Below the pieces are notes generated by a model. That model made no database searches and had not been told where the DNA came from. It was given only the letters and a program-made list of their open reading frames with translations. Made by a program: the position numbers and the translations under genes. Positions 3,025 through 60,372 of a stretch of DNA of 64,000 nucleotides are shown here, one piece after another (positions within the stretch are counted from its first letter, which is position 1; the number at the start of each line of letters is the position of its first letter). The DNA comes from Paenibacillus sp. FSL K6-3182 (lineage in GTDB: Bacteria > Bacillota > Bacilli > Paenibacillales > Paenibacillaceae). Location: the NCBI RefSeq assembly GCF_037976325.1, contig NZ_CP150265.1, forward strand, positions 4,273,501 through 4,337,500. The letters are read 5' to 3'.

Positions 3025-4212
3025 CTATCGTTGTCGAACAGACATTTTCCCTCGATCATAAGCAACAATGATCATCGTAGCGCCTAAGCCAGCACAGATC
3101 ATATACATCATAGAGTATGATGTGAAATCAGCTATTGGCCCCATAATAACGCCACCCAGTGAAATTCCTAAATCAGCCATAGCAATAAAAAGACCGATTA
3201 ACACATTGCGGCTCTTCTGCGGCAAAACAAATGTTAAATAGGTTGTTAATGTAGGGTAGATGAGAGCTTGAGCCGTTCCCATTAAAATGGAACCCGCATA
3301 GAAGAAAACAGCTCCTCCCGTTACAGAAAAGCTCACGCTTTGCGCCGCCAATGTCAAAAGGAGCATATTCCCCATCATAAACGATGAATGCCATTTACCG
3401 TCCGAAGGAATCTTTTTTCTTAAAGCAAAACGGGCCAAAACAACGGTACACGCTTGAAGCATAAGATAGATTCCAGCATTGCCGTTTTTTAATTCCGAAG
3501 CGTATAAAGGAATAAAGGTGGTAACTGCTCCAAATACCATTGAAGCTACCAACATCAACATGCTGCACTTAAACAAGGATGGGTTAGCTACTAACTGACC
3601 GAAGGATTTAAACATACTTTCTGACTGCCCGGTCTGATTTGCAGCAGTCTGGTCGCTTCCTTGATCCATTTTGGTACCATAACCGAACACCCCCGTAAAG
3701 ATCGCAATCGCAATCATGACCATCGTAAAATAATTCATATCCCCCGTTTGCCAAATACCCAAAGCCAGAACAGGGCCAAGGATACCCGGCATATACGTAA
3801 ATAAAGAATAAAGTGAAATGCCTTGGGAGCGATCCTTCTCTGGCAGTGAATCAATGATGCCGATCTGCAATGCCATTGAGAAAAAAGCGGTAGAAACTCC
3901 TTGTAAAATACGGGCAATTAAATAACCCTCTAAACCCGTAATCGTATAGAGGATTAAAGCAAAACCATTGACGATAAGAATAATGCGTAGCACTTTTATC
4001 GGTCCGTGCATTTGAATAATTCGGCCTGCCCACGGTCGAAAGAACATGGTTGTGAACAAATACGCCCCCATGATTAAACCGATCGTTGTGTTGCTGGCTC
4101 CGAGTGACTCTCCACGCAAAGGTATAATGACATTTAATATGGAATTGCCGCTGAAATAAAGAAGAGCCAGCATATACAATCGTATAAAAGGCCAAGATAA
4201 TGCTCCACTCAC
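3025..4212 (-). CDS. cntE: MFS metallophore exporter CntE-like
   Basis: Major facilitator transporter of about 395 residues with roughly 12 hydrophobic segments. Last gene of the cntKLMABCDFE-order locus, the place of the staphylopine exporter CntE in S. aureus, so its likely job is release of the newly made metallophore from the cytoplasm. Evidence for the family is the hydrophobic pattern and motifs such as FRPWAGRI (MFS loop 2-3 type) and ARILQGVSTAFFS. I prefer a GTG start at 4212 because TTAGGAGGAAGG lies 8-14 bases before it; the upstream ATG at 4239 lacks a site. MFS substrate cannot be read from sequence; export of the metallophore is inferred from synteny. Confidence 0.85.
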   Translation of the reverse strand: MSGALSWPFIRLYMLALLYFSGNSILNVIIPLRGESLGASNTTIGLIMGAYLFTTMFFRPWAGRIIQMHGPIKVLRIILIVNGFALILYTITGLEGYLIARILQGVSTAFFSMALQIGIIDSLPEKDRSQGISLYSLFTYMPGILGPVLALGIWQTGDMNYFTMVMIAIAIFTGVFGYGTKMDQGSDQTAANQTGQSESMFKSFGQLVANPSLFKCSMLMLVASMVFGAVTTFIPLYASELKNGNAGIYLMLQACTVVLARFALRKKIPSDGKWHSSFMMGNMLLLTLAAQSVSFSVTGGAVFFYAGSILMGTAQALIYPTLTTYLTFVLPQKSRNVLIGLFIAMADLGISLGGVIMGPIADFTSYSMMYMICAGLGATMIIVAYDRGKMSVRQR

Positions 4213-4270
4213 AACTTCCCTTCCTCCTAACTTCTGCATGCAAATATCCTATTCTCCAAAACTCATTCAG

Positions 4271-5005
4271 CTAAAAAGTGATAAGCATCTGCAACAATTT
4301 TTTCGCATATTCCGACTTGACGTCTTTTAATTGTTCGATTCTCACTATTTCTTCAACTTGACCATCTCTAAAAATAATGACTCTATCGCAAATATAGGCC
4401 GCAACCTGTATATCATGTGTGATAAATACATAACTCATGTTGTACATTTTTTTTAAATCTTTTAATAAATCAAGCACTTGGGTTTGAACAGATACGTCTA
4501 ATGAGCTGATTGCTTCATCTAACACAATGCATTTTGGTTCTGTGGAGATGGCTCTTGCAATACATACCCTCTGTACCTCTCCGCCCGATAGTTCATGTGG
4601 ATATTTTGTTCTGTATGATGGATGTAATCCAACTTGATTTAACAGCGTATCAACCATACTATGTTTTTTTTTATACCTTTTTATTGGCTCCATAATGGCT
4701 TCTTCGACCGTAAAAAAAGGATTAATGGACGACTTATAGTCTTGAAATACCGCGCTAATGTTACCAAAGCGCACTTTTCTATCCCCTACACTCTTGCCAT
4801 CAAATAAAACGCTGCCTCGATCAGGCTTTTCAATGCCTAATAACAATCGCCCTAAGGTTGATTTTCCGCTGCCGCTCTCTCCAATAATACCGAGACATTC
4901 GCCAGCTCCACATTCAAAACTAATATCATTCAACACTTTTTGTCTCTTTTTCGAAAATAATCCGCCTTTTTCATACGATTTATCCACATGATCAATTTTC
5001 AGCAT
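4271..5005 (-). CDS. cntF: Metallophore ABC transporter ATPase CntF
   Basis: Cytoplasmic ATPase of the Dpp/Opp/Nik type (244 residues). Walker A GESGSGKST, signature LSGGEVQRV, Walker B CIVLDEAI and a switch histidine in FITHD are all present. It lies 3 bases after cntD on the same strand, and both ATPases sit next to the permeases CntB and CntC. In S. aureus the equivalent complex imports metal-loaded staphylopine. Assignment as the F rather than D subunit follows position and its closer likeness to DppF. Ordinary dipeptide or nickel uptake is the alternative if context is ignored. Confidence 0.9.
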   Translation of the reverse strand: MLKIDHVDKSYEKGGLFSKKRQKVLNDISFECGAGECLGIIGESGSGKSTLGRLLLGIEKPDRGSVLFDGKSVGDRKVRFGNISAVFQDYKSSINPFFTVEEAIMEPIKRYKKKHSMVDTLLNQVGLHPSYRTKYPHELSGGEVQRVCIARAISTEPKCIVLDEAISSLDVSVQTQVLDLLKDLKKMYNMSYVFITHDIQVAAYICDRVIIFRDGQVEEIVRIEQLKDVKSEYAKKLLQMLITF

Positions 5006-5008
5006 GGT

Positions 5009-5815
5009 TCAACCCTCCCCCATAATCAGCTTAAAATGATTACTCAGCGCCAATCTAGTAGACAACAAATATTTTGTATATTCATGCACTGGTTCTGAAA
5101 AAACAGCTCGGATGCTCCCTTGTTCGACAATCTCTCCATCCTTCATGACCAAAACGTCATCAGCCATTTTTTTTACAACGCCGAGGTCATGAGAAATAAA
5201 GATCATCGAGCAGCCCATTCGCTCACGCAATTGCATAAATTGTTCAATTACTTCAAATTGTGAAATGGTATCCAGACCTGTTGTTGGCTCATCTGCGATA
5301 ATAATGTCAGGCTCCAGTACTAATGCGAGCGCAATCATAACTCGCTGCAGCATGCCCCCAGATAGCTGATGCGGATACTTATTCATCACTTCGATCGGAT
5401 TGTTCAACATCACGCTTGCCAAAGCTTTTTTCATTTTTTCTACGATTTCGTTCGTACTCCAGCCGAAATGTTCATAAAGGGTTTCCTTCAAATGAATGCC
5501 GATCACACACGAAGGGTCGAATGCACTCATCCCATTTTGCATAATCATACATAGCTGCTTTCCCCTTTTATTCCTCATTTCATGTTCAGAAAGCTGATTT
5601 AGATGTTCACCTTTGAATACGATATCTCCAGATTGGCGCAGCCAGGCTTTATTCAACCTCATAATCGACCTGCTGGTGACAGACTTGCCGCTCCCGCTTT
5701 CCCCTACTATAGCGAGGCAGCTGCCTTGCTTTAACTCGAATGAGCTGTTATGAATGATCACATGATCCGTTTTCATATCCCATACTTTTAAGTTTTTCAC
5801 CGCTAATACATTCAT
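5009..5815 (-). CDS. cntD: Metallophore ABC transporter ATPase CntD
   Basis: Second ATPase of the importer, 268 residues. Walker A GESGSGKSV, signature LSGGMLQRV, Walker B IIIADEPTT and ISHDLGVV switch region are intact, so both nucleotide sites of the complex look functional. It sits 4 bases from cntC and 3 bases from cntF, an arrangement expected of one mRNA. The C-terminal portion (FSEPVHEYTKYLL) is the Opp/Dpp family tail region. Energises uptake of the metal-metallophore complex; the substrate is inferred from the linked biosynthesis genes. Confidence 0.9.
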   Translation of the reverse strand: MNVLAVKNLKVWDMKTDHVIIHNSSFELKQGSCLAIVGESGSGKSVTSRSIMRLNKAWLRQSGDIVFKGEHLNQLSEHEMRNKRGKQLCMIMQNGMSAFDPSCVIGIHLKETLYEHFGWSTNEIVEKMKKALASVMLNNPIEVMNKYPHQLSGGMLQRVMIALALVLEPDIIIADEPTTGLDTISQFEVIEQFMQLRERMGCSMIFISHDLGVVKKMADDVLVMKDGEIVEQGSIRAVFSEPVHEYTKYLLSTRLALSNHFKLIMGEG

Positions 5816-5819
5816 GGCT

Positions 5820-6716
5820 TTAATCTGCCACCTCTTTTTCGCGAAGTCTGTTTTTAGTCACGATTCGTTTCTCTTGATGCTTAGCATTAGAGGTCATTAA
5901 CTGAGGATCCAATGCAACCTGAAGGGCATCTGACAAGAAATTAAATGCCGAAACAATAATAATAATAGCTATGCCTGGGGCTAACATGAGCTCAGGTCTT
6001 GTAAACATAACTTCTCGCGCTTCATTCAGCATCATTCCCCATTCCGCGTCAGGCGCTTGAATGCCTAATCCTAGAAACGAAAACCCTGATATTTGTAAAA
6101 TCATCGAACCGATCGCGCTGCTCGAGATGACTGTTATGTCCGCAAATGTAACCGGAATCATGTGCTTATAAATAATTTTTGCATTGCTGATGCCAGATGC
6201 TTTGGAAAATTTGACATAATTAAGTTCGGAATACTGCATCACAGACGTTCTGATTACCCGAGCAAACCATGCCCATTTCATGACAACAAACGCTATCATA
6301 ATGTTTTCAAGACCTACGCCTAAAATGCCGACTATCGCCAGTGTCATAACATATAGCGGGAAAGAAAGCATGATATCGCAAATTCGCATAATAAAGGCAT
6401 CTACTTTTCCTCTAAAGTAACCCGCGATAAAGCCTAATAGAGCGCCTATCCCTATCGATATCGCTAATGCAGCCAATACCCACAGGACACTGGGACGAAT
6501 GCCATAAATTAATCGGGATAGAATACATCTCCCCAAGTGATCGTTCCCGAGCAGGTATTCCCAGGACGAGGACGCATATCTTACGCTCATCTTGATTTCG
6601 TTAGGATCATGCGGGGCAAAAAAAGAGGGGAATAATCCGACAATAAGCGTTGCAGCAATAACAATTAAGGATAAGCTGCCTATTTTATCTTCGCTTATGT
6701 TTTTTAATCGTTTCAT
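5820..6716 (-). CDS. cntC: Metallophore ABC transporter permease CntC
   Basis: Membrane subunit of the DppC/OppC/NikC family, 298 residues. It has an N-terminal transmembrane segment, the family block SWEYLLGNDHLGRCILSRLIYGIR (quoted in part: LLGNDHLGR), and several further membrane helices. The cytoplasmic coupling region lies near residues 165-190 (SKASGISNAKIIYKHMIP). The ATG starts immediately after the cntB stop codon, and the ribosome site AAGGAGATCTAG lies inside the end of cntB, so the two are coupled. It should pair with CntB to make the translocation channel. Confidence 0.9.
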   Translation of the reverse strand: MKRLKNISEDKIGSLSLIVIAATLIVGLFPSFFAPHDPNEIKMSVRYASSSWEYLLGNDHLGRCILSRLIYGIRPSVLWVLAALAISIGIGALLGFIAGYFRGKVDAFIMRICDIMLSFPLYVMTLAIVGILGVGLENIMIAFVVMKWAWFARVIRTSVMQYSELNYVKFSKASGISNAKIIYKHMIPVTFADITVISSSAIGSMILQISGFSFLGLGIQAPDAEWGMMLNEAREVMFTRPELMLAPGIAIIIIVSAFNFLSDALQVALDPQLMTSNAKHQEKRIVTKNRLREKEVAD

Positions 6717-7649
6717 CTAGATCTCCTTCCTCATTTTAGGATTCAAAGCGGCATTTACGATGTCCGAAACGGTATTAAATAATACAAATGCGACTGCCAC
6801 TATCAGAACATAGGCTTGAATCACAGGGAAATCTCTGCTTAGAATCGATCTTATACTTAAACTCCCTAACCCTGGCCACGCAAAAACATTTTCAACAACG
6901 ACGGTGCCTCCTAATATAATCGGGATAGCCATACCGAATATCGAAATGGCAACCTGCAAGGAATTTCTTAATATATGCATCGTAATTTTTTTCTCAGACA
7001 AGCCAGATGCCCTGCCATATAGAACATAGTCTTCATTTAGATTGCTTATCATCGAGCTTCTGACGTTTCGAAAATAAATCCCTGCATAACTTATCGCAAT
7101 CACAGTTACCGGCAAAATATAGCTTTTATACGAATCCATTCCGCTCGTAGGCAGCAAATCCAATTTAACGGATATATACCAAATTAAAATAGCTGCAAGC
7201 CAGTATGACGGCATGGATGTTAATAAAAATGAGATGCCCCTTACTGATTTGTCTATCATTTTCCCTTCATTTATTGCACTAAGCACCCCCAATAGGATGG
7301 ACAAAACAATAACAACGATAGATGAAACTAGCGTTAGCTTTAACGTATTCAGTAAAGCTGGACCTACCAATGACCAAATCGGTTTTCCTGTGACATATGA
7401 ATCTCCAAAGTCTAGTTGCATGCAGGCAACGACCCAATGTAAATAACGAATGATAAATGGCTGGTTCAAGCCAAGTTCTTCTTTCGTCTGAGCAATTAAA
7501 TCATTTGTTATATTGGGTATGCCTTGCGCTTGCAATACCAATTGGGCCGGATCTTGGGGAGAGAGATTAATGAATACAAACGTTATAAACGAAATAATTA
7601 ATAGAAGAGGGATTGCTAATAATAGCCTTCTATAGATGTACCTTGCCAT
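6717..7649 (-). CDS. cntB: Metallophore ABC transporter permease CntB
   Basis: Membrane subunit of the DppB/OppB/NikB family, 310 residues, opening with the typical MARYIYRRLLLAIPLLLIIS helix. Family features include FGDSYVTGKPIW in the first external region and the coupling stretch YGRASGLSEKKITMHILRNSL. About six membrane segments are visible. It lies between cntA and cntC in the S. aureus gene order. The 96-base gap to cntA carries no obvious terminator, so it is likely co-transcribed. Confidence 0.9.
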   Translation of the reverse strand: MARYIYRRLLLAIPLLLIISFITFVFINLSPQDPAQLVLQAQGIPNITNDLIAQTKEELGLNQPFIIRYLHWVVACMQLDFGDSYVTGKPIWSLVGPALLNTLKLTLVSSIVVIVLSILLGVLSAINEGKMIDKSVRGISFLLTSMPSYWLAAILIWYISVKLDLLPTSGMDSYKSYILPVTVIAISYAGIYFRNVRSSMISNLNEDYVLYGRASGLSEKKITMHILRNSLQVAISIFGMAIPIILGGTVVVENVFAWPGLGSLSIRSILSRDFPVIQAYVLIVAVAFVLFNTVSDIVNAALNPKMRKEI

Positions 7650-7745
7650 ATAAAAATCTCCTTTCTACAGAAAATATCAAATGACTCTATCCTTCTTTAC
7701 TCAAAATAAAAAAGGGAGTAATCCTCCCCTTTAATTTTTCGCGTT

Positions 7746-9362
7746 CTATTCAAAGCTCATTCGCTCGAATGGCAGCTCAAATTGTGTTTGTTTAAACGAG
7801 ATATCTTTTATCTCTTTTGGCGCCACGATAGTGACACTGCCATTCGAGATTGGAATAAAGACAGCTTCGTCATGAACGATTGTCATAATATCAGCATATA
7901 ACGCTTGCCGTGTTGCCTCATCCTTGGATACCATGACCTCATCAATTTTCTTGTAAAGCTCACTTGCTTCCGCAATTCCGCTTGTTGTATGCAAATAAGC
8001 ATTCTCAGAAGTAAAAGCAGAGATGGTGCTTTGCGGATCATAAGCAAGTCCCCATGTTTGATTGAATAATAAATGATAATCTCCGGTTGATCTTCTTTTG
8101 GCGATTGAGGTTGATTCCTCACCGATAATTTCCAATTGAATACCTATCTCCTTCAAAGAGCTTTGAATAAATTCAGCCTGTGTTTTTTGGGAAGAAGAAT
8201 TGCTGTCATAATATAATTGGATTGCTAATGTTTTATCATCCTTTACTCTAGCAGCAGCGCCTTTCTCCAGTTTCCATCCTGCACCTTCCAATAGCTGCTT
8301 CGCTGCTTCCATATCATAGTCTCGTTTCTTCAAATCGACATTCGCATAATTGACGTTAGCTGAAAATAGGGAATGGGCTGCTGATTCAGTCCCATTTAAA
8401 ATATCCTTACTAATCGTATCTCTATCAATAGAGTGCCAGATGGCTTCACGAACAGCTTTTTCACTTACGGGATGATCGGATTTACTGCTGTTGGCCACGA
8501 TCATTTTTGTGTTCATCGCTTCACTTCTAACAAGCTGATAATTGCCTGTTTCAATTAATTGTTCCATCGCTTCAACATCGATACTGTCTGCACCGCGATC
8601 GTCAGTGAATACAAAGTTCACTTCACCCTTTTGCAAAGCTAGGAATGTCGTCTCTCCTGCTGGGAGAACTTTAGAAGTAATTTTTTTAATTTTAGGTGCG
8701 CCGCCCCAGTATGCGTCATTTGATTCAAACGAAGCATACTCATCAGTTTTATGGTCCATAAGCTTATATGGTCCTGTTCCGTTGTAGCCATTTACGCCAT
8801 TTTTCGTTTCTCCATCAATAAAGTTTTTAGGGGAGATGAATACGTAAGGCCTAGTCATGGATAATTCAACTAAGGTTGGATAATAGGATTCAGACAGTGT
8901 GAGTTCAACTGTATATTCATCTACCGCTTTAACGCTTACTATTTTTGTCGACAGCTTGATCCAAGTATGCTTTTCTTTATTATGTTGTACCGCTTCAATA
9001 TTTTGCTTTACAGCCTCTGCGTCAAAAGGTTCACCATCATGGAACTTCACATCTTTCCTCAAATGAAAGGTATATATTTTGCCATCTTCAGAAATTTCCC
9101 ATGATTCCGCCAGTAAAGGCATGATTCCCTCCTTTGTGTTTTCGACTAAAGATTCGTACACCATTCCTTGTGCTGGCATTGAACCTGCATACAGATGTGG
9201 ATTCATATCATTAATGTCTTTGGCCGATGCATACACGAGTTCTGTTTTCTTTTCCTTATTTGCTGAATTCGATTTCGCATCTTTGACGTCGCTGCAGCCT
9301 GCCAGTACAATTAAAAGCATCAGCATGGATAAAACAACAACAAGCAAATTTCCTTTTTTCAA
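7746..9362 (-). CDS. cntA: Metallophore-binding lipoprotein CntA
   Basis: Extracellular solute-binding protein of family 5 (DppA/NikA/OppA type), about 538 residues, anchored to the membrane. The signal peptide is hydrophobic and ends in the lipobox LAGC. The family fold is shown by YTFHLRKDVKFHDGEPFDAEAV and the late AFTSENAYLHT region. I choose a TTG start at 9362 because TAGGAGGAAGTATT precedes it directly; the longer ATG form at 9392 would put that site inside the gene. In S. aureus CntA binds staphylopine-metal complexes; the same ligand type is inferred here from the flanking cntKLM genes. Confidence 0.9.
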   Translation of the reverse strand: MKKGNLLVVVLSMLMLLIVLAGCSDVKDAKSNSANKEKKTELVYASAKDINDMNPHLYAGSMPAQGMVYESLVENTKEGIMPLLAESWEISEDGKIYTFHLRKDVKFHDGEPFDAEAVKQNIEAVQHNKEKHTWIKLSTKIVSVKAVDEYTVELTLSESYYPTLVELSMTRPYVFISPKNFIDGETKNGVNGYNGTGPYKLMDHKTDEYASFESNDAYWGGAPKIKKITSKVLPAGETTFLALQKGEVNFVFTDDRGADSIDVEAMEQLIETGNYQLVRSEAMNTKMIVANSSKSDHPVSEKAVREAIWHSIDRDTISKDILNGTESAAHSLFSANVNYANVDLKKRDYDMEAAKQLLEGAGWKLEKGAAARVKDDKTLAIQLYYDSNSSSQKTQAEFIQSSLKEIGIQLEIIGEESTSIAKRRSTGDYHLLFNQTWGLAYDPQSTISAFTSENAYLHTTSGIAEASELYKKIDEVMVSKDEATRQALYADIMTIVHDEAVFIPISNGSVTIVAPKEIKDISFKQTQFELPFERMSFE

Positions 9363-9406
9363 AATACTTCCTCCTAAAAAATATAAGTTCATTATGGTTT
9401 CAACAA

Positions 9407-10711
9407 TTACGCTTTTAAATATTTTCCAATTTCATTACAAATTCTGTTCAAGTCTTCTTCAAAGCTTTGAACAGCAAATGCAGCAGATAACCTAATTTCC
9501 TTATGGGATTGAGCAACTTCTTCCAATTTACTCTCATAGGTAAGTATGAATTTATCGATAGTAGGGCAGCTCGAATCTGTATATTTTGCAATTCCCTGAA
9601 TGATTTTCAGACGATAATAATCCTCCTTTGGCATTCTTGGAATATCCAAATCACCTTCTCTATTAATGAACATCTTTCTGATAGGGACTGCAGAAAAGTC
9701 AAAATATTTCCCATCCTTATCAGGTTCAGAAAAAGGATCGATCAATAGCGAGGTATAACGGATATACAACAAATACTCTTGATGAATCGTTTCGAAAATT
9801 GGAAAGTTTTCTATATCATGACGTGATAAACTTTCGAGTCTTACCGGATAATTGTCATCCGTCATAAATTTAAGTAAATTTATACCTTTTATATGCAGCT
9901 TACTGATAATATTCATAATTTCTTTCCAATGGGCCAACATCTCACGAATAAGTAATGGTGTAATTGGCCCTTCAGGATAAATTTTATAAACATATTTTTT
10001 GGTATCCTGATCACCGAATATGGCGCTTAATGAAACCTCATTCATAAAGAGCGGCGGATGAACGTATAACGAAATATTTCTTGTTTCTGCTTCAATCGGC
10101 GATTCCATTATGTCTATCGCAATACCTAAATGTTTGTATGCTTTACAGAGTTCTTCAACATTAGGTGATGGGTAATTTGTAGAGCCAATAAATACTTTTT
10201 TCTTAACCGCTGTCGTTAGGACATGATTTGTAGGTCTAGCATGCATCCATCTTGTATCGCCAAAGTAGGTGGAAAAACTAATAATCTCCACACTCGGATT
10301 AAAATCATTCATATAATGGCGAATTAAGCTATGCGAGCCTAAGGTCGGGGAAATTAATAGCATACACTTTACTTTCCTTAGAACCTTAGGATCGATTAGT
10401 TTCAACACTTCGATATAGGCATCCGTTGTGACAGCAAATATAAGGGTATCCCATTCACCTGTAATCGTTTCGTACCCTTTAAATATGTAATCAACAAAAC
10501 ATTCACCCTCCAAAGCACGATGTTTCTCATTCTGAATGCTTACACGTAAACGTTGATTGCTCTGTTCAAGCGCATCATAAAATGACCCAGAACGTACAGA
10601 TTCTCTCCCTACAATCGCTACAGTGCAATCCCAACATTTTTTTAGCTTCAAAGCTAGTTGAATTGAAGCTGGTCCCGTGCCTAACAGCAAAACATGTTTG
10701 AAATCACTCAT
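9407..10711 (-). CDS. cntM: Opine metallophore dehydrogenase CntM
   Basis: NAD(P)H-dependent enzyme that reductively condenses a 2-oxo acid with the nicotianamine-like intermediate to give the finished opine metallophore. It has 434 residues. An N-terminal dinucleotide-binding GTGPAS motif (11-16) and Arg36 at the end of the second strand fit NADPH preference. The segment FSTYFGDTRWMH carries Asp152, which by local alignment corresponds to S. aureus position 150, where Asp gives pyruvate selectivity and Ala allows 2-oxoglutarate. The ATG at 10711 follows GGAAGGAAGGCCTTT. It sits between cntL and cntA, 29 bases from cntL. Cofactor and substrate choice are predictions from those residues. Confidence 0.93.
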   Translation of the reverse strand: MSDFKHVLLLGTGPASIQLALKLKKCWDCTVAIVGRESVRSGSFYDALEQSNQRLRVSIQNEKHRALEGECFVDYIFKGYETITGEWDTLIFAVTTDAYIEVLKLIDPKVLRKVKCMLLISPTLGSHSLIRHYMNDFNPSVEIISFSTYFGDTRWMHARPTNHVLTTAVKKKVFIGSTNYPSPNVEELCKAYKHLGIAIDIMESPIEAETRNISLYVHPPLFMNEVSLSAIFGDQDTKKYVYKIYPEGPITPLLIREMLAHWKEIMNIISKLHIKGINLLKFMTDDNYPVRLESLSRHDIENFPIFETIHQEYLLYIRYTSLLIDPFSEPDKDGKYFDFSAVPIRKMFINREGDLDIPRMPKEDYYRLKIIQGIAKYTDSSCPTIDKFILTYESKLEEVAQSHKEIRLSAAFAVQSFEEDLNRICNEIGKYLKA

Positions 10712-10740
10712 AAAGGCCTTCCTTCCTATCCAAAAGCAGA

Positions 10741-11535
10741 CTATGCTTTTTGGTACAATGCAATATCAAACAAATGATCTGGACGTCTTACCTGTTCAAC
10801 CAACTTCCATTTTTGAGCGTTCACCGCTTTCATTGGGAAATTGAATAATGATTTTATTTGTTCTCCATATCTCATTGCCACAACGACATGCTTATTGGTC
10901 AATGAATAGAGTTGATCCAATATGTCATATTTATTTTCAACGGTTGAGCTAAAAATGATATGGGTCGCCACTTTCGTAAAATCAAGATTTTCCACCAGCC
11001 TATTCTCTAATCGAATATTAAAGCCAATGCTAAATTTCTCTACAACGCTCCTGCCAAGCTCAATAGCTTCATCGTCAATATCTAAACCAACGACCTCCGC
11101 TCCAGTGCGCTTCGCAATCAAAATGGGCGTCATCGGAAATGCACCTGAGCCTATTAATAACACTTTTGAATCCGAGGATAGTTGGAAGCTCCCAAATTCT
11201 TCTTCGATGCACGATTCTATGTTTTTGAAATAATCGGTTATCTCAGCATTTCCTTCATGAAGCTTTAATGCACGATATTTCTCCATAATCGCAACGCAAA
11301 ATGCCGATTTTCTTCTCAGATCCACCACAAGTTGAAGGATATCATTGGAATCATGATGTCCAAGTAGATCCCAAGCTTCATGGTTACTTCTGTTTGTTAC
11401 GAATTTCGAATATTCATCTATTAAATTTTCCATCTCCGAGCTATTGTTAACCGTATGATCATATCGACCTGCTAAACTATCAAATTTATCTGAAAATTCA
11501 ATCAATTTATTTTGAAAACTCTCCACCTTATTCAT
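10741..11535 (-). CDS. cntL: Nicotianamine-synthase-like aminobutanoyltransferase CntL
   Basis: Transfers an aminobutyrate unit from S-adenosylmethionine onto histidine (D-histidine when CntK is present), the middle step of opine metallophore synthesis. The 264-residue protein has the NAS/CntL SAM-binding motif LLIGSGAFPMTPILI (about residues 126-140) followed by the acidic strand VVGLDIDDEAIELG. Its N-terminal third is helical, as in characterised CntL (about 270 residues). Start: ATG at 11535 after GCAGGGGGAAAACA; a longer frame to 11562 would overlap cntK. Sits 26 bases after cntK. Distinct from the second NAS-like gene at 14419-15312. Confidence 0.93.
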   Translation of the reverse strand: MNKVESFQNKLIEFSDKFDSLAGRYDHTVNNSSEMENLIDEYSKFVTNRSNHEAWDLLGHHDSNDILQLVVDLRRKSAFCVAIMEKYRALKLHEGNAEITDYFKNIESCIEEEFGSFQLSSDSKVLLIGSGAFPMTPILIAKRTGAEVVGLDIDDEAIELGRSVVEKFSIGFNIRLENRLVENLDFTKVATHIIFSSTVENKYDILDQLYSLTNKHVVVAMRYGEQIKSLFNFPMKAVNAQKWKLVEQVRRPDHLFDIALYQKA

Positions 11536-11561
11536 TGTTTTCCCCCTGCTATAAAAAATCA

Positions 11562-12395
11562 CTACACTTCTATAAAAGCTTTGCCCTGCGCAACAATTCC
11601 AACAGATCCTTCAATTTTAAGACTTGCAAGTACTTCTTTATAACAATCCGCCATTACTTTAATCGTGCCACCGGGTTGTTTTATTTGTGCAACAACTCCC
11701 TTCTTATTTTTCCATGCTAGATAAGCACCCAATGAAGCAGTACCTGAACCGCAACCCCTTTCCCAGATCATACTGTCTAGATGCGGAACATAAATCAGCG
11801 GAGCTAATTCAGCAGATTGTGATTTATACAATAAAATGCCAACCAAGTTTGCTTTTAAAGTTGATCCAAATAATTTAGCTAATCTTTGCGCTTTATCTCT
11901 ATTCCATTTATCAAATTGCTCTACTTCTATCACAATATGAGTAAACTCCTGGTAACTCACTAGAATAACATCCAGATCGCAACCGTCATGTTTAATCGTT
12001 CTCTTTTCTATCTTGTTAGGAACTGGCATAGCAACTTGACATAAATATTCATTTGCCATTTTTCTTACCTGGCACATGATTAATTTATCTGTTCCTGATA
12101 CCTCTAATCGTAATTCCGCCAAGGCATCCTGATCTAACCCTTTTTCTGACGCAATAAAAGCTGCCAATGACATGCACGCATTCCCGCAAAACTCACCTCC
12201 AGCCATGATCAAATGTGCATCCGCTTCTTTTTTATTCGATTTTTCGATAAAACCTACTTGCTCCGCATTCACGTTGTCATAGGACATCATTTTTGTTGCA
12301 ATATGCTTATACTCATCAACAGGATGATTCGATTTAACTAAAATCGTCATATTTTGTGTTGGATTAAATTTAATAAAATCTATTTCCTGTTTCAT
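11562..12395 (-). CDS. cntK: Histidine racemase CntK
   Basis: Diaminopimelate-epimerase-fold enzyme that, in the cnt context, converts L- to D-histidine, the first step of staphylopine synthesis. About 277 residues. The two acid/base cysteines of the fold are visible, in GGEFCGNACMS (about C70) and ERGCGSGTAS (about C215), both with intact surroundings, so the enzyme should be active. Start ATG 12395 with AGGGTAGTTGTG upstream; a TTG at 12410 is an alternative. It is the first gene of the operon, directly downstream of the Zur-like boxes. A housekeeping DapF is the alternative family member, but position next to cntL and cntM argues for CntK. Confidence 0.92.
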   Translation of the reverse strand: MKQEIDFIKFNPTQNMTILVKSNHPVDEYKHIATKMMSYDNVNAEQVGFIEKSNKKEADAHLIMAGGEFCGNACMSLAAFIASEKGLDQDALAELRLEVSGTDKLIMCQVRKMANEYLCQVAMPVPNKIEKRTIKHDGCDLDVILVSYQEFTHIVIEVEQFDKWNRDKAQRLAKLFGSTLKANLVGILLYKSQSAELAPLIYVPHLDSMIWERGCGSGTASLGAYLAWKNKKGVVAQIKQPGGTIKVMADCYKEVLASLKIEGSVGIVAQGKAFIEV

Positions 12396-12467
12396 CACAA
12401 CTACCCTCAACCCTCCGATTTTTTATTGGTATTCCTTTAATGTGTACAGTTTCCCAAGTTATAAAGT

Positions 12468-12509
12468 GTAATTATTACGATATAACATTGTTTTAAATGT
12501 AATGATTAC
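12468..12509 (-). promoter_or_regulatory. Two Zur-like boxes upstream of cntK
   Basis: GTAATGATTAC (12499-12509) and GTAATTATTAC (12468-12478) are both near-perfect palindromes flanked by CGAT-type bases, giving TCGTAATnATTAC on the minus strand. This fits the Bacillus Zur box core TCGTAATNATTACGA. Their centres are 31 bases apart, about three helical turns, so two dimers would sit on the same DNA face. They lie just downstream of the -10 element and should block transcription when zinc is plentiful. A Fur role cannot be excluded because Fur and Zur boxes overlap in sequence. Confidence 0.82.
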
Positions 12510-12529
12510 GATTATCACTCACAGGTTTG

Positions 12530-12667: not shown

Positions 12668-12861
12668 ACAATCAAAAAGAGTGCAAAAGAATATTTTCCA
12701 TTCCCCACTCCCAGCTTTAAATCCAATAACAAAGGAACAATTCCCTCCCATTAACCTTTTTCTTCTGTCCTCGACTGGATGAAAATGCTCTGATTAACGA
12801 GAGCTCCTCCATTGTTCATGCTTTTAAAATTCTCTACTGACTTACTATTGTAAATTGTTTT

Positions 12862-13200
12862 TTATCCAGCTAAGCAGTGACTCTTCCTTAGGGCCCAACC
12901 AAGTAAATTTCTTGCGTGAGCCGCACGTACACGGCTGTTCGAAGCGATGGCAAAACGCGCCCAATCCCCAAGCTCTGCAATCGCCTCGTTTGCGGACCAG
13001 CTTATCGTCTTGCCGCCAAAGCCTAGCGCCTCACTGACCGATTTGGCGATGTCCCCGTACGATTCCTCTCCATTTTCGGCAAAGAAATATGATGCGGAAG
13101 GTGCTTTTTCAAGTGCCAACACATACAGCTGAACCAAATCCTTGATGTGTACATTGGACCAGCGGTTTACACCTTTACCAAAACTCATGTGCCGCTCCAA
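12862..13200 (-). pseudogene. C-terminal remnant of an NAD-dependent epimerase/dehydratase
   Basis: About 112 residues read as the second half of an extended SDR (NAD-dependent epimerase family): GVNRWSNVHIKDLVQLYVLALE, then YFFAENGEESYGDIAKSVSEALG and a final NSRVRAAHARNLLGW region. The Rossmann half with the glycine motif and the YxxxK pair, normally about 180 residues, is absent upstream, and no good start or ribosome site is visible. It is therefore a broken gene, probably inactive. It sits between the cnt operon and a GNAT gene in a region with other fragments. Confidence 0.75.
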
Positions 13201-13506: not shown

Positions 13507-14058
13507 TTACGTAGCAATATCATGTTGCATGACTTTATTGCAATCTAAAAAGTCTAACCGCTCCACTTTATACAAATCATAGATCTGTTGCGCATTATTT
13601 ATCGATTTATATATTTGATGGTTTATATCATTTGCTAATTTGGCATACGGTAATTTTTCTATCGCCTTCCTCGATCGAATATTTTGTTTACGGACTTTCA
13701 AAAATACCGTTTCGATATTATGCTCAAGGAATAGTTCACTAAAAAAAGATTCCTTCGCTCGTTGGTTATAACCTTTTCCAAAATAAGGAGTTCCAATCCA
13801 TGTGGCTAAAAAGCCGGTTTTATTAACAATATCATATAGATCAATGGTACCAATGGGATGTCCATTCTCATTTATAATTGTTCTAGATATACATGTCTCC
13901 TGTTCTTCTTCAACGATCAACTGTTTGGTTATGAATAAGTATTGTTCATATAATTGGCAATTATAACGAACGTAAGGAAAAACCGCAGGATCCATCATTA
14001 AGTCATACAGTGAATGGCATTCCTGCAAATCACGTTTTTTTAACATTAAATCTACCAC
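13507..14058 (-). CDS. GNAT family N-acetyltransferase, RimJ/RimL type
   Basis: Cytoplasmic acetyl-CoA-dependent transferase of 183 residues. The fold is shown by an N-terminal strand-helix, HPIGTIDLYDIVNKTGFLATWIG (central beta strands), the acetyl-CoA pyrophosphate loop region YFGKGYNQRAKESFF and the late RKQNIRSRKAIEKL motif in which Asn/Ser-Arg-Ala is typical of RimJ/RimL members. The substrate cannot be read. It stands alone between debris and the orphan NAS-like gene, with a terminator on each side, so it is probably its own transcript. Confidence 0.85.
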   Translation of the reverse strand: MVDLMLKKRDLQECHSLYDLMMDPAVFPYVRYNCQLYEQYLFITKQLIVEEEQETCISRTIINENGHPIGTIDLYDIVNKTGFLATWIGTPYFGKGYNQRAKESFFSELFLEHNIETVFLKVRKQNIRSRKAIEKLPYAKLANDINHQIYKSINNAQQIYDLYKVERLDFLDCNKVMQHDIAT

Positions 14059-14418: not shown

Positions 14419-15312
14419 TCAACCAGGTATAGCAGGAGTAGTCATACTTTCAAGAAACAAGGTCGAATTAATGACTAGCGTTTCTTCAGGCCAAGTTCGC
14501 GTCAGAATCCGCCACCCTTGCTTTTTCAACTGTGATTCATCAACCGCTTCGTACATGATTCGCTTCATTCCCTCAGCTGTTCGAACAGCTACTAGAGAAT
14601 CTGGGGATGTACGTTTAATTTGATTCAGCACCCCAAGCTTATCTCTAACGAGACTAGCTACGAATACTCTACTATAAGAGCTATAATCAAAATCTGATCC
14701 ATTCTCCAATACAACAGTCACTTTATTCCCTAATCCCATACGCTTGAGCAAAAAACATGATGCATCATAGGCCACAGGATCAATTTCCAAGCAGAGAACC
14801 TCAACATCCCCGATAAGATGCAAAATAATAGGACTTAGAGGCATCGGCCCACTTCCAACAAAGACAATCCGAGACTTCACTTTCTGACCATCCGCTCGAG
14901 TAATCCGGCGAAGAGTGGACAGCTCCTCACTAACTAAGGCCATATAAATGTTCCAGTAAGACAGCCTTCGAATGTTATCCAAGACGGAATCCTCTGATTT
15001 GCTAATGTGAAGAGAATCGCCTAACTCTACTAAAAATTCGGCTTCTGACAACTTATCCTGCAAATTTCGTTGGTTCATTCGAATATATTCGTTGCTTAGA
15101 ACGGCCTGTACCTCCTCCGGTAAGTAGTGGGAACGTAATTGAAGTGAAAGGCGCCTAATCATGTTCGCAACTAATTGATTAGCAGGAGACAGATCAACTT
15201 CTTTTTGAAGAAGTTCATTTACTTCACGGATAAAAGCGATAAAGCCGTCAACCATTTGTATTCTTGTTGTGTTGCTTGTAAGTAAAATAGAACCAGATGA
15301 ATAAACCTCCAT
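14419..15312 (-). CDS. Second nicotianamine-synthase-like protein (orphan)
   Basis: 297 residues related to nicotianamine synthase. The diagnostic SAM-binding motif FVGSGPMPLSPIIL (about 151-164) is closer to the canonical NAS GSGPLPLTS form than CntL's is, and is followed by the acidic strand EVLCLEIDP. The N-terminal half is helical, as in NAS. A family enzyme joins aminobutyrate units from S-adenosylmethionine to an amino acid or to each other. The ATG at 15312 follows AAGGAGGAAATGGGTAA. It has its own terminator and no partner racemase, opine dehydrogenase or transporter beside it; the cnt operon lies 2 kb downstream. No Zur-like box was seen upstream. Acceptor and product are unknown; it might supply an alternative scaffold to CntM. 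Confidence 0.82.
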   Translation of the reverse strand: MEVYSSGSILLTSNTTRIQMVDGFIAFIREVNELLQKEVDLSPANQLVANMIRRLSLQLRSHYLPEEVQAVLSNEYIRMNQRNLQDKLSEAEFLVELGDSLHISKSEDSVLDNIRRLSYWNIYMALVSEELSTLRRITRADGQKVKSRIVFVGSGPMPLSPIILHLIGDVEVLCLEIDPVAYDASCFLLKRMGLGNKVTVVLENGSDFDYSSYSRVFVASLVRDKLGVLNQIKRTSPDSLVAVRTAEGMKRIMYEAVDESQLKKQGWRILTRTWPEETLVINSTLFLESMTTPAIPG

Positions 15313-15508: not shown

Positions 15509-15790
15509 TTATTTCGTATATAAGCTTTTCATCAGTTCACGGTTTTTTTTCCTAAACAAGTCATTGTGCGAGGATACCATTCCATTCGCATTTGCATCCG
15601 GATTCACGTATTGCTTCGCTTTATTAACTGCGTTCGCAGCGTCCTGGATCGCCCCCGCAATGAGATGCAGCTTTCCATCATGGTGTAAAATATCGCCTGC
15701 TGCATAGATGCCTGGCATCGATGTTTCGCTCATCGGAGATCCAGAAATCCAATGATCATGGAGCACAACACCATCAGTTGCTAGCTTAAT
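15509..15790 (-). pseudogene. C-terminal fragment of ferredoxin-NADP reductase (YumC/TrxB-like)
   Basis: The open frame ends in a block typical of the YumC-type flavoprotein C-terminus: SMPGIYAAGDILHHDGKLHL, with the FAD-contacting GD, followed by IAGAIQDAANAVNKAK and the tail VSSHN. About 94 codons remain of a protein normally near 330 residues; an in-frame TAG lies just upstream (15791-15793) and the FAD and NADPH domains are missing. It is a decayed or truncated copy, with its terminator still in place at 15414-15441. Confidence 0.8.
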
Positions 15791-58162: not shown

Positions 58163-59428
58163 CTACGTCATGGCCTCAAGATGCTGGAAAGCTGAAGGCA
58201 GCGACTCTTCTTCGAGGCGCTGGCGGATCAAGGCGGCACACTCTTCGGAACTAAGCACCGAGGTGTCAACCTCCAGATCATAGATTCCAAGCATATGGAC
58301 AGCCTGCTGCCACAATCTCACCGGCTTTGGCACAGATCCGTCCTCTTCGTAGCCGGAATTCCAAGTAACGATCCTCCGCTGCATAACAACCTCTAATGGG
58401 CATCGCACAGCAACAAACAAAACCGGCAGTCCACTTAGAGTCCGGGCACAGCTGGGAAGAATCCCCCGCGGGATCGAATAAGCATCGTGGTGACCGACAT
58501 CAACTACAACATTCAGTCCCAAGCGGCTGTGCGCAGCAATAGACTCATACATGGCTTGATAAAGGGTCACTATGAGTGGCTCAAGGTCGGGGCGTTCCCC
58601 ACCTGGCCTAAGCCCAATCCCTGGCCGGTAGCGTTCTGGGGTCATCTGCATGAACCGGTCGACTCCCATGTTCATCCACACACCCTCGAACGTATTCTGA
58701 ATCACAGTGGCAATACTGGACTTCCCTGACCGCGGAGTCCCGTTTAAAATAATAATCTGTCCGGGCACATCTACCTGTAACATTTGCTTCCCCCTTGATT
58801 GTAATGAATAAAAGTTCCTGCTCTCAACCTCAAGACGTTGGAACTCCGGCCACTCTTGGAGGCGCTGGCGGATCAGAGCGGCACACTCTTCAGAACTGAG
58901 CACCGAGGTGTCAACCTCCAGGTCATAGTTACCAGGCATATGGACAGCCTGCTGCCATAATCTCACTGGCTTTGGCACAGATCCGTCCTCTTCGTAACCG
59001 GAATTCCAGGTAGCGATCCGCCGCTGCATGACAACCTCTAATGGGCATCGTACACCCACAAACAAAACAGGCAATCCACTCAGGATCCGGGCACAGCTCG
59101 GAAGAATCCCCCGCGGAATCGAATAAGCATCATGATGCCAGACATCCACCACGACATTCAGTCCCAGACGGCTGTGTGCAGCAATGGCTTCATACATGGC
59201 TTGATACAGGATCACAATTAGAGGCTCAAGTTCAGGACGTTCCCCACCTGGCCGAAGCGAGATCCCAGGCTGGTAGCGTTCGGGGGTCATTTTCTTGAAC
59301 TGACTGCCCCCAACGTTCATCCATACACCCTCAAACATATTCTGGATCGCGGTGGCAATGCTTGACTTCCCAGCCCGCGGATTGCCGTTCAGAATGACTA
59401 TTTGTCCGAGTTTATCTTCTTGTGACAT
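58163..59428 (-). CDS. Tandem-duplicated chloramphenicol-phosphotransferase-like P-loop kinase
   Basis: 421 residues made of two closely similar halves, the second starting 215 codons after the first. Each half carries a P-loop (GNPRAGKSS near 15-23, GTPRSGKSS in the second) and the same downstream blocks (SRLGLNVVVDV.HHDAYSIPRGIL; VLFV.VRCPLEVVMQRRI; LEVDTSVLSSEECAALIRQRL). The family member CPT phosphorylates chloramphenicol using an Asp after the P-loop. The second half keeps it (MGVDRF, Asp257) while the first reads VGGSQF (Ser42), so only the second half may be catalytic by that scheme. ATG at 59428 follows TATGGAGGGAAACGC. A second ATG at 58783 has its own ribosome site. The substrate is unknown; chloramphenicol is not proven. 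Confidence 0.85.
   Translation of the reverse strand: MSQEDKLGQIVILNGNPRAGKSSIATAIQNMFEGVWMNVGGSQFKKMTPERYQPGISLRPGGERPELEPLIVILYQAMYEAIAAHSRLGLNVVVDVWHHDAYSIPRGILPSCARILSGLPVLFVGVRCPLEVVMQRRIATWNSGYEEDGSVPKPVRLWQQAVHMPGNYDLEVDTSVLSSEECAALIRQRLQEWPEFQRLEVESRNFYSLQSRGKQMLQVDVPGQIIILNGTPRSGKSSIATVIQNTFEGVWMNMGVDRFMQMTPERYRPGIGLRPGGERPDLEPLIVTLYQAMYESIAAHSRLGLNVVVDVGHHDAYSIPRGILPSCARTLSGLPVLFVAVRCPLEVVMQRRIVTWNSGYEEDGSVPKPVRLWQQAVHMLGIYDLEVDTSVLSSEECAALIRQRLEEESLPSAFQHLEAMT
58781..58797 (-). promoter_or_regulatory. Internal ribosome site and ATG inside the duplicated kinase
   Basis: On the minus strand CAAGGGGGAAGCAA precedes an in-frame ATG at 58783, the first residue of the second half (MLQVDVPGQIII). 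The spacing is normal. The second half could therefore also be made as a separate protein of about 206 residues, which suggests two formerly separate genes fused in frame. Confidence 0.6.
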
Positions 59429-60372
59429 GCGTTTCCCTCCATACAAAGATTTCGTTCATACTGTGAATGTTTTTTTCATCTTTGGAAGTTACAATATAGA
59501 TTGTAGCAACTATACGGCTAATGGAATAGTCTGTAATTTTAATATAATAAGGCGTAAAATTGAATTAGAACATAATCTTATCTTGTTGTGCTATTCTGCC
59601 CGTTCATATTATGATTCAACTAGATAGATCCTTATGCCGCAGCCATTGTCAGATAGGTCACTTAATAAGCAAAAAAAACCACCCCGAAGGGTGGTCCGTA
59701 CTCATGATGAGCACTATCGGATTTGGATTGGAGTGGAGAGTCCTGTCCTGAACCTTTAGCTTTTTAGTGTTAAACACATTCATGTCTTTCAACTTCAATA
59801 ACCGATTAATGAAGGATGTATTCGACACTAGGTTACCCTCCAAAAAAAACGAAACCTGTAAAGACGATGAGTCCAATCAAGGTTTGTTGGTCGCAACTTT
59901 GGATCTCCACGACCCCCTATGCCTTTACTCCGAGCACCTCTGATTTTCGTTGAAGCAAATCGTATTGTGTAAGCAGATGCTCTTTTTTGGCTAACTTCGT
60001 ACCGTGCCTGATGCCAACCGAACAGCTTACAGCGGCTTTCCTTTACGGTTGCGATGTTTTATTATCGTGGAATTTAGGGGGGGATGAATGAATCTTGATT
60101 TTTGTAGCTGACGACGCGTATCCGGATGAAGCTTTCAGCGGTAGATTCAAACGCTGTGCTCCTCCACCTTCGGCTACGTCTACGCTTCACTGAACCCCTG
60201 ACCAATTTTGGTCCAGCGAAGAGCTCTCCATCAGAGCTATGATAAATCCTGATACTGAACTTCAATTCTTTGGGTTAGCGTAACAAATCCCTCCATGCTC
60301 CCGTGGTGGTTCGTTGCCATGACCAGAATTGTCAAACTTAAGGCATGTACCTTGACACGGTACATACCACGC
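59429..60372. other. Gene-poor interval with one terminator
   Basis: No reading frame here shows a recognisable domain with a ribosome site; the open frames at 59658-59876 and 60074-60265 on the minus strand look random. A terminator hairpin lies at 59677. The rest looks like decayed sequence between the kinase gene and the SDR remnant. Confidence 0.5.
59677..59695 (-). terminator. Rho-independent terminator
   Basis: AACCACCC (59677-59684) pairs with GGGTGGT (59689-59695); TTTTTTTTGC follows on the minus strand. It could end transcription from the operon at 60.4-63.8 kb. Confidence 0.7.

Follow-up and report, generated by a model that had tools for sequence, protein, structure and literature searches.

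The staphylopine locus of Staphylococcus aureus presumably consists of nine genes in the order cntK-L-M-A-B-C-D-F-E, and we found the same gene content and order in the soil bacterium Paenibacillus sp. FSL K6-3182, within a stretch of 64,000 nucleotides (NZ_CP150265.1, positions 4,273,501 to 4,337,500) that is hereafter called the window. The two loci are alike in the cysteines of the racemase CntK, in the Asp at position 150 of the opine dehydrogenase CntM and in a strongly similar substrate-binding protein CntA, and unlike in that CntK, CntL and CntM of the window score below the NCBI cut-offs for staphylopine equivalogs. The bacillopaline locus of Paenibacillus mucilaginosus, another described relative, shares with the window the type with a racemase and an exporter of the major facilitator superfamily (MFS), as set out in a 2020 survey (PMC7438024), and differs from it by an Ala at CntM position 150 where the window has Asp. 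The survey also gives the rules by which such loci are read: the presence of a CntK racemase means that D-histidine is used, and Asp at CntM position 150 selects pyruvate while Ala allows 2-oxoglutarate. A further relative is the zincophore cluster of Paenibacillus sp. FSL A5-0031 (L161, L121), assigned by the genome tool to the window's own species, which has the same operon with Asp, a CntM that is 90% identical, and the same acetyltransferase and nicotianamine synthase (NAS) genes upstream. We consider it highly probable that the opine-metallophore operon of the window is complete and functional and belongs to the staphylopine type.

Gene content and predicted product

The nine open reading frames (ORFs) form one operon-like run on the minus strand (3025-12395), and all of them are full length and uninterrupted, in agreement with the first-pass annotation, which had described nine genes as present and apparently intact. 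As the spacing between successive cnt genes is only -1 to 96 bases, cntK-L-M-A-B-C-D-F-E was taken as one operon. The genome, a single contig of 7.56 Mb, encodes one CntM. Between the window and FSL A5-0031 the ratio of nonsynonymous to synonymous substitution rates (dN/dS) is 0.11-0.30 for each of the nine genes, which indicates that the operon is under purifying selection.

The product type is read from two of the biosynthetic proteins. The opine dehydrogenase CntM (9407-10711; PF10100, 9e-202; staphylopine dehydrogenase structures, E 7e-122) has Asp152, in FSTYFGDTRW, aligned without a gap to Asp150 of the staphylopine dehydrogenase chain (SaCntM), as the first-pass annotation had proposed, and the aligned keto-acid selector position is Ala in the pseudopaline dehydrogenase chain (PaCntM) as well as in the CntM of P. 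mucilaginosus KNP414 (P0123). The histidine racemase CntK (11562-12395; NF033599, 239 bits, E 8e-71; PDB 6l4l, E 1.5e-46) is 277 aa long when read from the ATG at 12395, the mechanical ORF beginning at a TTG at 12410. Both of its predicted catalytic cysteines are in place, Cys70 and Cys215 lying in FCGNA and GCGSGTA motifs and aligning with the corresponding motifs (FCGNA and GCGSGTAS) in chains 6l4l and 6jis of the PDB, which are titled diaminopimelate epimerase and which we take to be S. aureus CntK; chain 6jiw has Ser in place of the first cysteine. The D-histidine 2-aminobutanoyltransferase gene cntL (10741-11562; NF033601, 290 bits; solved CntL structures, E 5e-62) lies directly upstream of the PF10100 gene cntM, and its listed start is a GTG, with an in-frame ATG nine codons downstream.

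The racemase and the Asp residue support the earlier prediction of a product built from D-histidine, aminobutyrate and pyruvate, that is, staphylopine. The two rules invoked for it are indeed found in PMC7438024, and both residue readings hold here. The position that is Ala in bacillopaline-type CntM is Asp in the window, and in place of the pseudopaline/yersinopine-type combination of no racemase with an EamA exporter the window has a racemase and an MFS exporter. All three biosynthetic proteins miss the NCBI staphylopine equivalog cut-offs (CntK 239 of 300 bits, CntL 290 of 350, CntM 531 of 675), and the product type is therefore argued from the residue rule rather than from the NCBI names.

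Both the importer CntABCDF and the exporter CntE are encoded, the second ATPase being placed by position only. The substrate-binding lipoprotein CntA (7746-9392) scores 982 bits with NF047575 (cut-off 800), and its strong match (E 4e-190) to the solved structure 5yh8, which the PDB lists as a nickel ABC transporter substrate-binding protein and which is presumably S. aureus CntA, was counted in favour of the staphylopine type. The permeases are cntB (6717-7649; NF045469, nickel/cobalt permease Opp1B, 499 bits, cut-off 380) and cntC (5820-6716; NF047573, 490 bits, cut-off 440), and the ATPase cntD (5009-5815) has 468 bits with NF047578 (cut-off 380) and passed the CntF model too. The second ATPase (4271-5005; ABC_tran, 4e-32) reached no CntF cut-off among the NCBIfam models, its nearest models being NikE-type, and is named cntF by its position. 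The MFS metallophore exporter gene cntE (3025-4239) scores 694 bits with NF047574 (cut-off 235). As a set, the family matches of the operon exceed chance by a wide margin.

By analogy with characterised homologues, from which the reactions, the product and the identity of the regulator are inferred, the operon would be read when zinc is scarce and a Zur-like repressor leaves two boxes upstream of cntK. CntK would convert L-histidine to D-histidine, to which CntL would add aminobutyrate from S-adenosylmethionine, and CntM would join the resulting compound to pyruvate to give staphylopine; pyruvate is the expected substrate because Asp152 disfavours 2-oxoglutarate. Staphylopine would then be exported by CntE and its metal complex taken back by CntABCDF.

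Zur-like boxes upstream of cntK

The two Zur-operator-like boxes lie at 12466-12480 and 12497-12511 (no strand assigned), each with two mismatches to TCGTAATNATTACGA, a motif which we take to be the core of the Gram-positive Zur operator. Across relatives, a box with at most two mismatches is present in 108 of the 118 distinct cntK upstream regions (up to 250 bases), whereas single-base shuffles, used as the control, gave about 0.25 per set. Like the gene content and the residue identities, this conservation is a direct observation.

Weighing the product assignment

Several points weigh against a zinc-regulated staphylopine operon. With the NCBI staphylopine model, the CntM of the window (531 bits) is hardly above that of P. 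mucilaginosus; the CntMs of P. mucilaginosus, P. methanolicus and P. caseinilyticus also stay below 675 bits (514, 526 and 526, respectively), and the cut-off fails to separate product types among these CntMs because all of them miss it. The CntA model accepts the CntA of an Ala-type locus too (954 bits, cut-off 800), so the importer gives no independent confirmation of the product, and this model was dropped as a means of confirming its type. The keto-acid rule itself depends on one residue tried in few enzymes. For the boxes, both copies in the window depart from the assumed consensus at two positions; the window shows no enrichment of the motif (5 hits where 3.8 are expected, at most three mismatches) and the whole genome shows little (65 hits, control 51, at most two mismatches). 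Since the genome-wide search is not specific at two mismatches it was set aside, and the footprint over relatives was used instead. What supports the boxes is their position and their conservation across related species, and these two are not independent of each other.

The alternative that survives best, though we regard it as improbable, is that CntM takes 2-oxoglutarate despite Asp152, or is promiscuous, with bacillopaline or a mixture as the result. The 66% identity between the CntM of the window and that of P. mucilaginosus in the alignment would suit it, together with their similar staphylopine-model scores and a CntA model that passes both locus types. The selector residue, however, is the Asp of SaCntM whereas P. 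mucilaginosus has Ala, and the keto-acid rule given in PMC7438024 argues for pyruvate.

Distribution in Paenibacillaceae

To place the staphylopine-type assignment in its family, we surveyed 394 genomes of Paenibacillaceae, 118 of which had a CntM match; 94 genomes supplied the 102 full-length CntM places that were examined. The 102 do not include fragments or broken copies (G050, G116, G156, G244, G280, G323, G337, G339, G378) and fifteen full-length CntM places of genus g5. Asp with cntK was found at 79 places, Asp without a detected cntK at one, Ala with cntK at two, Ala without it at 16 and Ser without it at four, cntK being absent beside 20 of the 22 Ala or Ser enzymes. For the 23 places of the window's genus the corresponding counts are 16, 0, 0, 5 and 2.

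The nearest named loci, taken as the best 80 of 134 relatives, gave a similar picture. The exact run K-L-M-A-B-C-D-F-E is present in 79 of them, in some with extra single-gene copies, and the one exception (L172) differs only by a cntA split into two ORFs. All 80 have cntK, and the CntM selector is Asp in 79 and Ala in one, P. methanolicus. Among 120 listed proteins, out of 803 related to the CntM of P. caseinilyticus (the query's own record included), there are 117 with Asp and three with Ala, these being P. mucilaginosus, P. methanolicus and one further protein. The first-pass annotation had suggested that the metallophore type may vary inside Paenibacillus. The mixture of Asp and Ala is real, and had already been reported for this cluster in PMC7438024, but the emphasis shifts: as predicted from the residues, the staphylopine type is the rule among the loci examined and the P. 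mucilaginosus type, with racemase and Ala, is the exception.

CntM history, racemase-less loci and fusions

A CntM tree was built by a quick method from 82 of the 102 rows, after thinning the Asp rows of genus g5 and leaving out 14 columns around the selector. It divides the enzymes that go with a racemase from those that do not, with three changes of the selector residue and two of the association with a racemase; L068, which combines Ala with a racemase, has a long branch that makes its position unsure. The CntM of P. caseinilyticus (P0121, L179) has Asp at 80% identity to the Ala enzyme of P. mucilaginosus, from which the selector residue has probably changed more than once in that group, a conclusion drawn from identities rather than from the tree. 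The pair offers a ready natural test of keto-acid choice.

The racemase-less cntLM loci of Paenibacillaceae (L062, L096, L098-L103, L105, L107, L119, L120, L127, L131, L133-L136), some of them in the window's genus, share CntL and CntM homologues with the window and differ from it by having no cntK found, Ala or Ser at position 150 and a separate CntM clade. They differ in the box as well: it was seen near the cntL start in one of 21 places (20 racemase-less ones and that of G293, which has no detected cntK), where a box farther upstream would be missed because transporter genes precede cntL in several. Four genomes (G274, G282, G081, G113) each hold such a locus in addition to one with racemase and Asp, so that a single cell is predicted to have metallophores of two types.

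In G350, cntK and cntL are joined in frame (L128 10300-11970, minus strand), giving a protein of 557 aa. This fusion is itself missing from the protein-database match list, in which further CntK-CntL fusions occur (P0241 and P0250 listed): a second, 52% identical and 561 aa long, and a third that is shorter. Such natural fusions are rare; their existence ties the racemase to the transferase, and they provide a ready natural test of how D-histidine is handed over. A different combination was seen for PF26317, the domain listed for most CntK relatives in the same search too: it is joined to a GNAT acetyltransferase in P0261-P0263 and P0265-P0268, and one of these proteins is named as Patescibacteria.

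Genes upstream of the operon

Upstream of cntK, on the same strand, the window carries a GNAT acetyltransferase gene (13507-14058) and, beyond it, the NAS gene (14419-15312; PF03059 at 1e-21, to which cntL is a weaker match at 3e-4). If one or both acted in the pathway, the product would be a further modified one. Both genes stand in this arrangement in the window and in FSL A5-0031, between which their dN/dS values are low (acetyltransferase 0.11, NAS gene 0.12). The survey (PMC7438024) counts same-strand transferases within seven ORFs as cluster members, includes the cluster of FSL A5-0031 in those with one transferase more, and reports that upstream of this cluster there are a further cntL homologue and a transport system. 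This explanation nevertheless appears less probable still than the use of 2-oxoglutarate, since among the 80 named loci, within the available flanks, FSL A5-0031 was the sole one in which the two genes were both found, its FecCD-type transport system has no equivalent in the window, and the acetyltransferase is set apart from cntK by remnants or foreign genes. The acetyltransferase, beside cnt in only this one of the 80, and in the window's own species, is an unlikely tailoring enzyme.

The NAS gene has a distribution of its own. Counted as PF03059 matches of at least 48 bits not beside cntM, it is present in 36 of the genus's 51 genomes, and 20 of the 36 have no CntM match; in other species with both on one contig, NAS and cnt are tens of kb or more apart (for example about 92 kb in G350, 208 kb in G358). 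Around 21 NAS loci no neighbour family is constant in position, even the most frequent (a broad family seen in 16 of them) being scattered, and upstream of the gene a Zur-like box was found in 0 of 30 regions at up to three mismatches, which is chance level (shuffles 0.35). The gene is thus separate and probably not part of the cnt operon, and with its place apart from cnt elsewhere in the genus and no box upstream it is unlikely to be a cntL duplicate or a member of the pathway.

The NAS protein looks like an active enzyme, as its Glu96 and Tyr123 are conserved without exception in the 118 relatives aligned. Just upstream of its gene, FSL A5-0031 has genes for a binding protein, two FecCD permeases and a pyridine-nucleotide reductase (L121 733-3873; L141 4472-5551), and in L151 (G370) the next genes on the same strand encode an oligopeptide-type ABC transporter, contexts which hint at a role linked to uptake. 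The FecCD-type system is absent from the window, where the last 86 residues of the reductase (15512-15769, minus strand) are the sole remainder of that region, so the uptake system was either lost in the window or gained in FSL A5-0031. We put forward tentatively, as a possibility that is not the likelier one, that the NAS gene yields a separate, nicotianamine-like chelator of metals that depends on neither the opine dehydrogenase nor the zinc box; the uptake systems adjoining it in FSL A5-0031 and L151 are what a secreted ligand of this kind would need. The word 'Paenibacillus' did not turn up in a word search of PMC12454661, which belongs to the literature on bacterial standalone NAS, and one of PMC10248798 gave no usable answer on catalytic residues.

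FSL A5-0031 also differs from the window in carrying, ahead of cntK, LysR and DJ-1/PfpI-like genes, which have no counterpart of similar size in the window's gap, and a whole epimerase/NmrA-like gene of 299 aa (L121 7950-8849), which is reduced to a remnant at 12848-13179 (minus strand) in the window. That the cnt operon is likewise silent or decaying is very improbable, as all nine ORFs are open under the constraint noted above, even though the epimerase/NmrA-like and reductase genes nearby survive only as pieces and cntM is broken in some relatives (e.g. G339, G378). Far from the operon, an ORF of 427 aa (58163-59446, minus strand) carries two tandem chloramphenicol-phosphotransferase-like PF07931 domains that are very alike by eye.

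Implications for Paenibacillus

The operon of strain FSL K6-3182 is a further member of a well-described type, from a species with a cluster on record since 2020, and the published sequence rules apply cleanly to one more genome. Added here are the conservation of the box, evidence that the NAS gene is separate, the contrast of Asp in P. caseinilyticus CntM with Ala in that of P. mucilaginosus, and the rare CntK-CntL fusions. Should the NAS gene make its own chelator, Paenibacillus would have two separate aminobutyrate-based metal ligands. As the staphylopine type is predicted by default for the Paenibacillaceae loci that were examined, P. mucilaginosus is a poor stand-in for the genus and, though it is the experimentally studied type, should not be taken to represent it.

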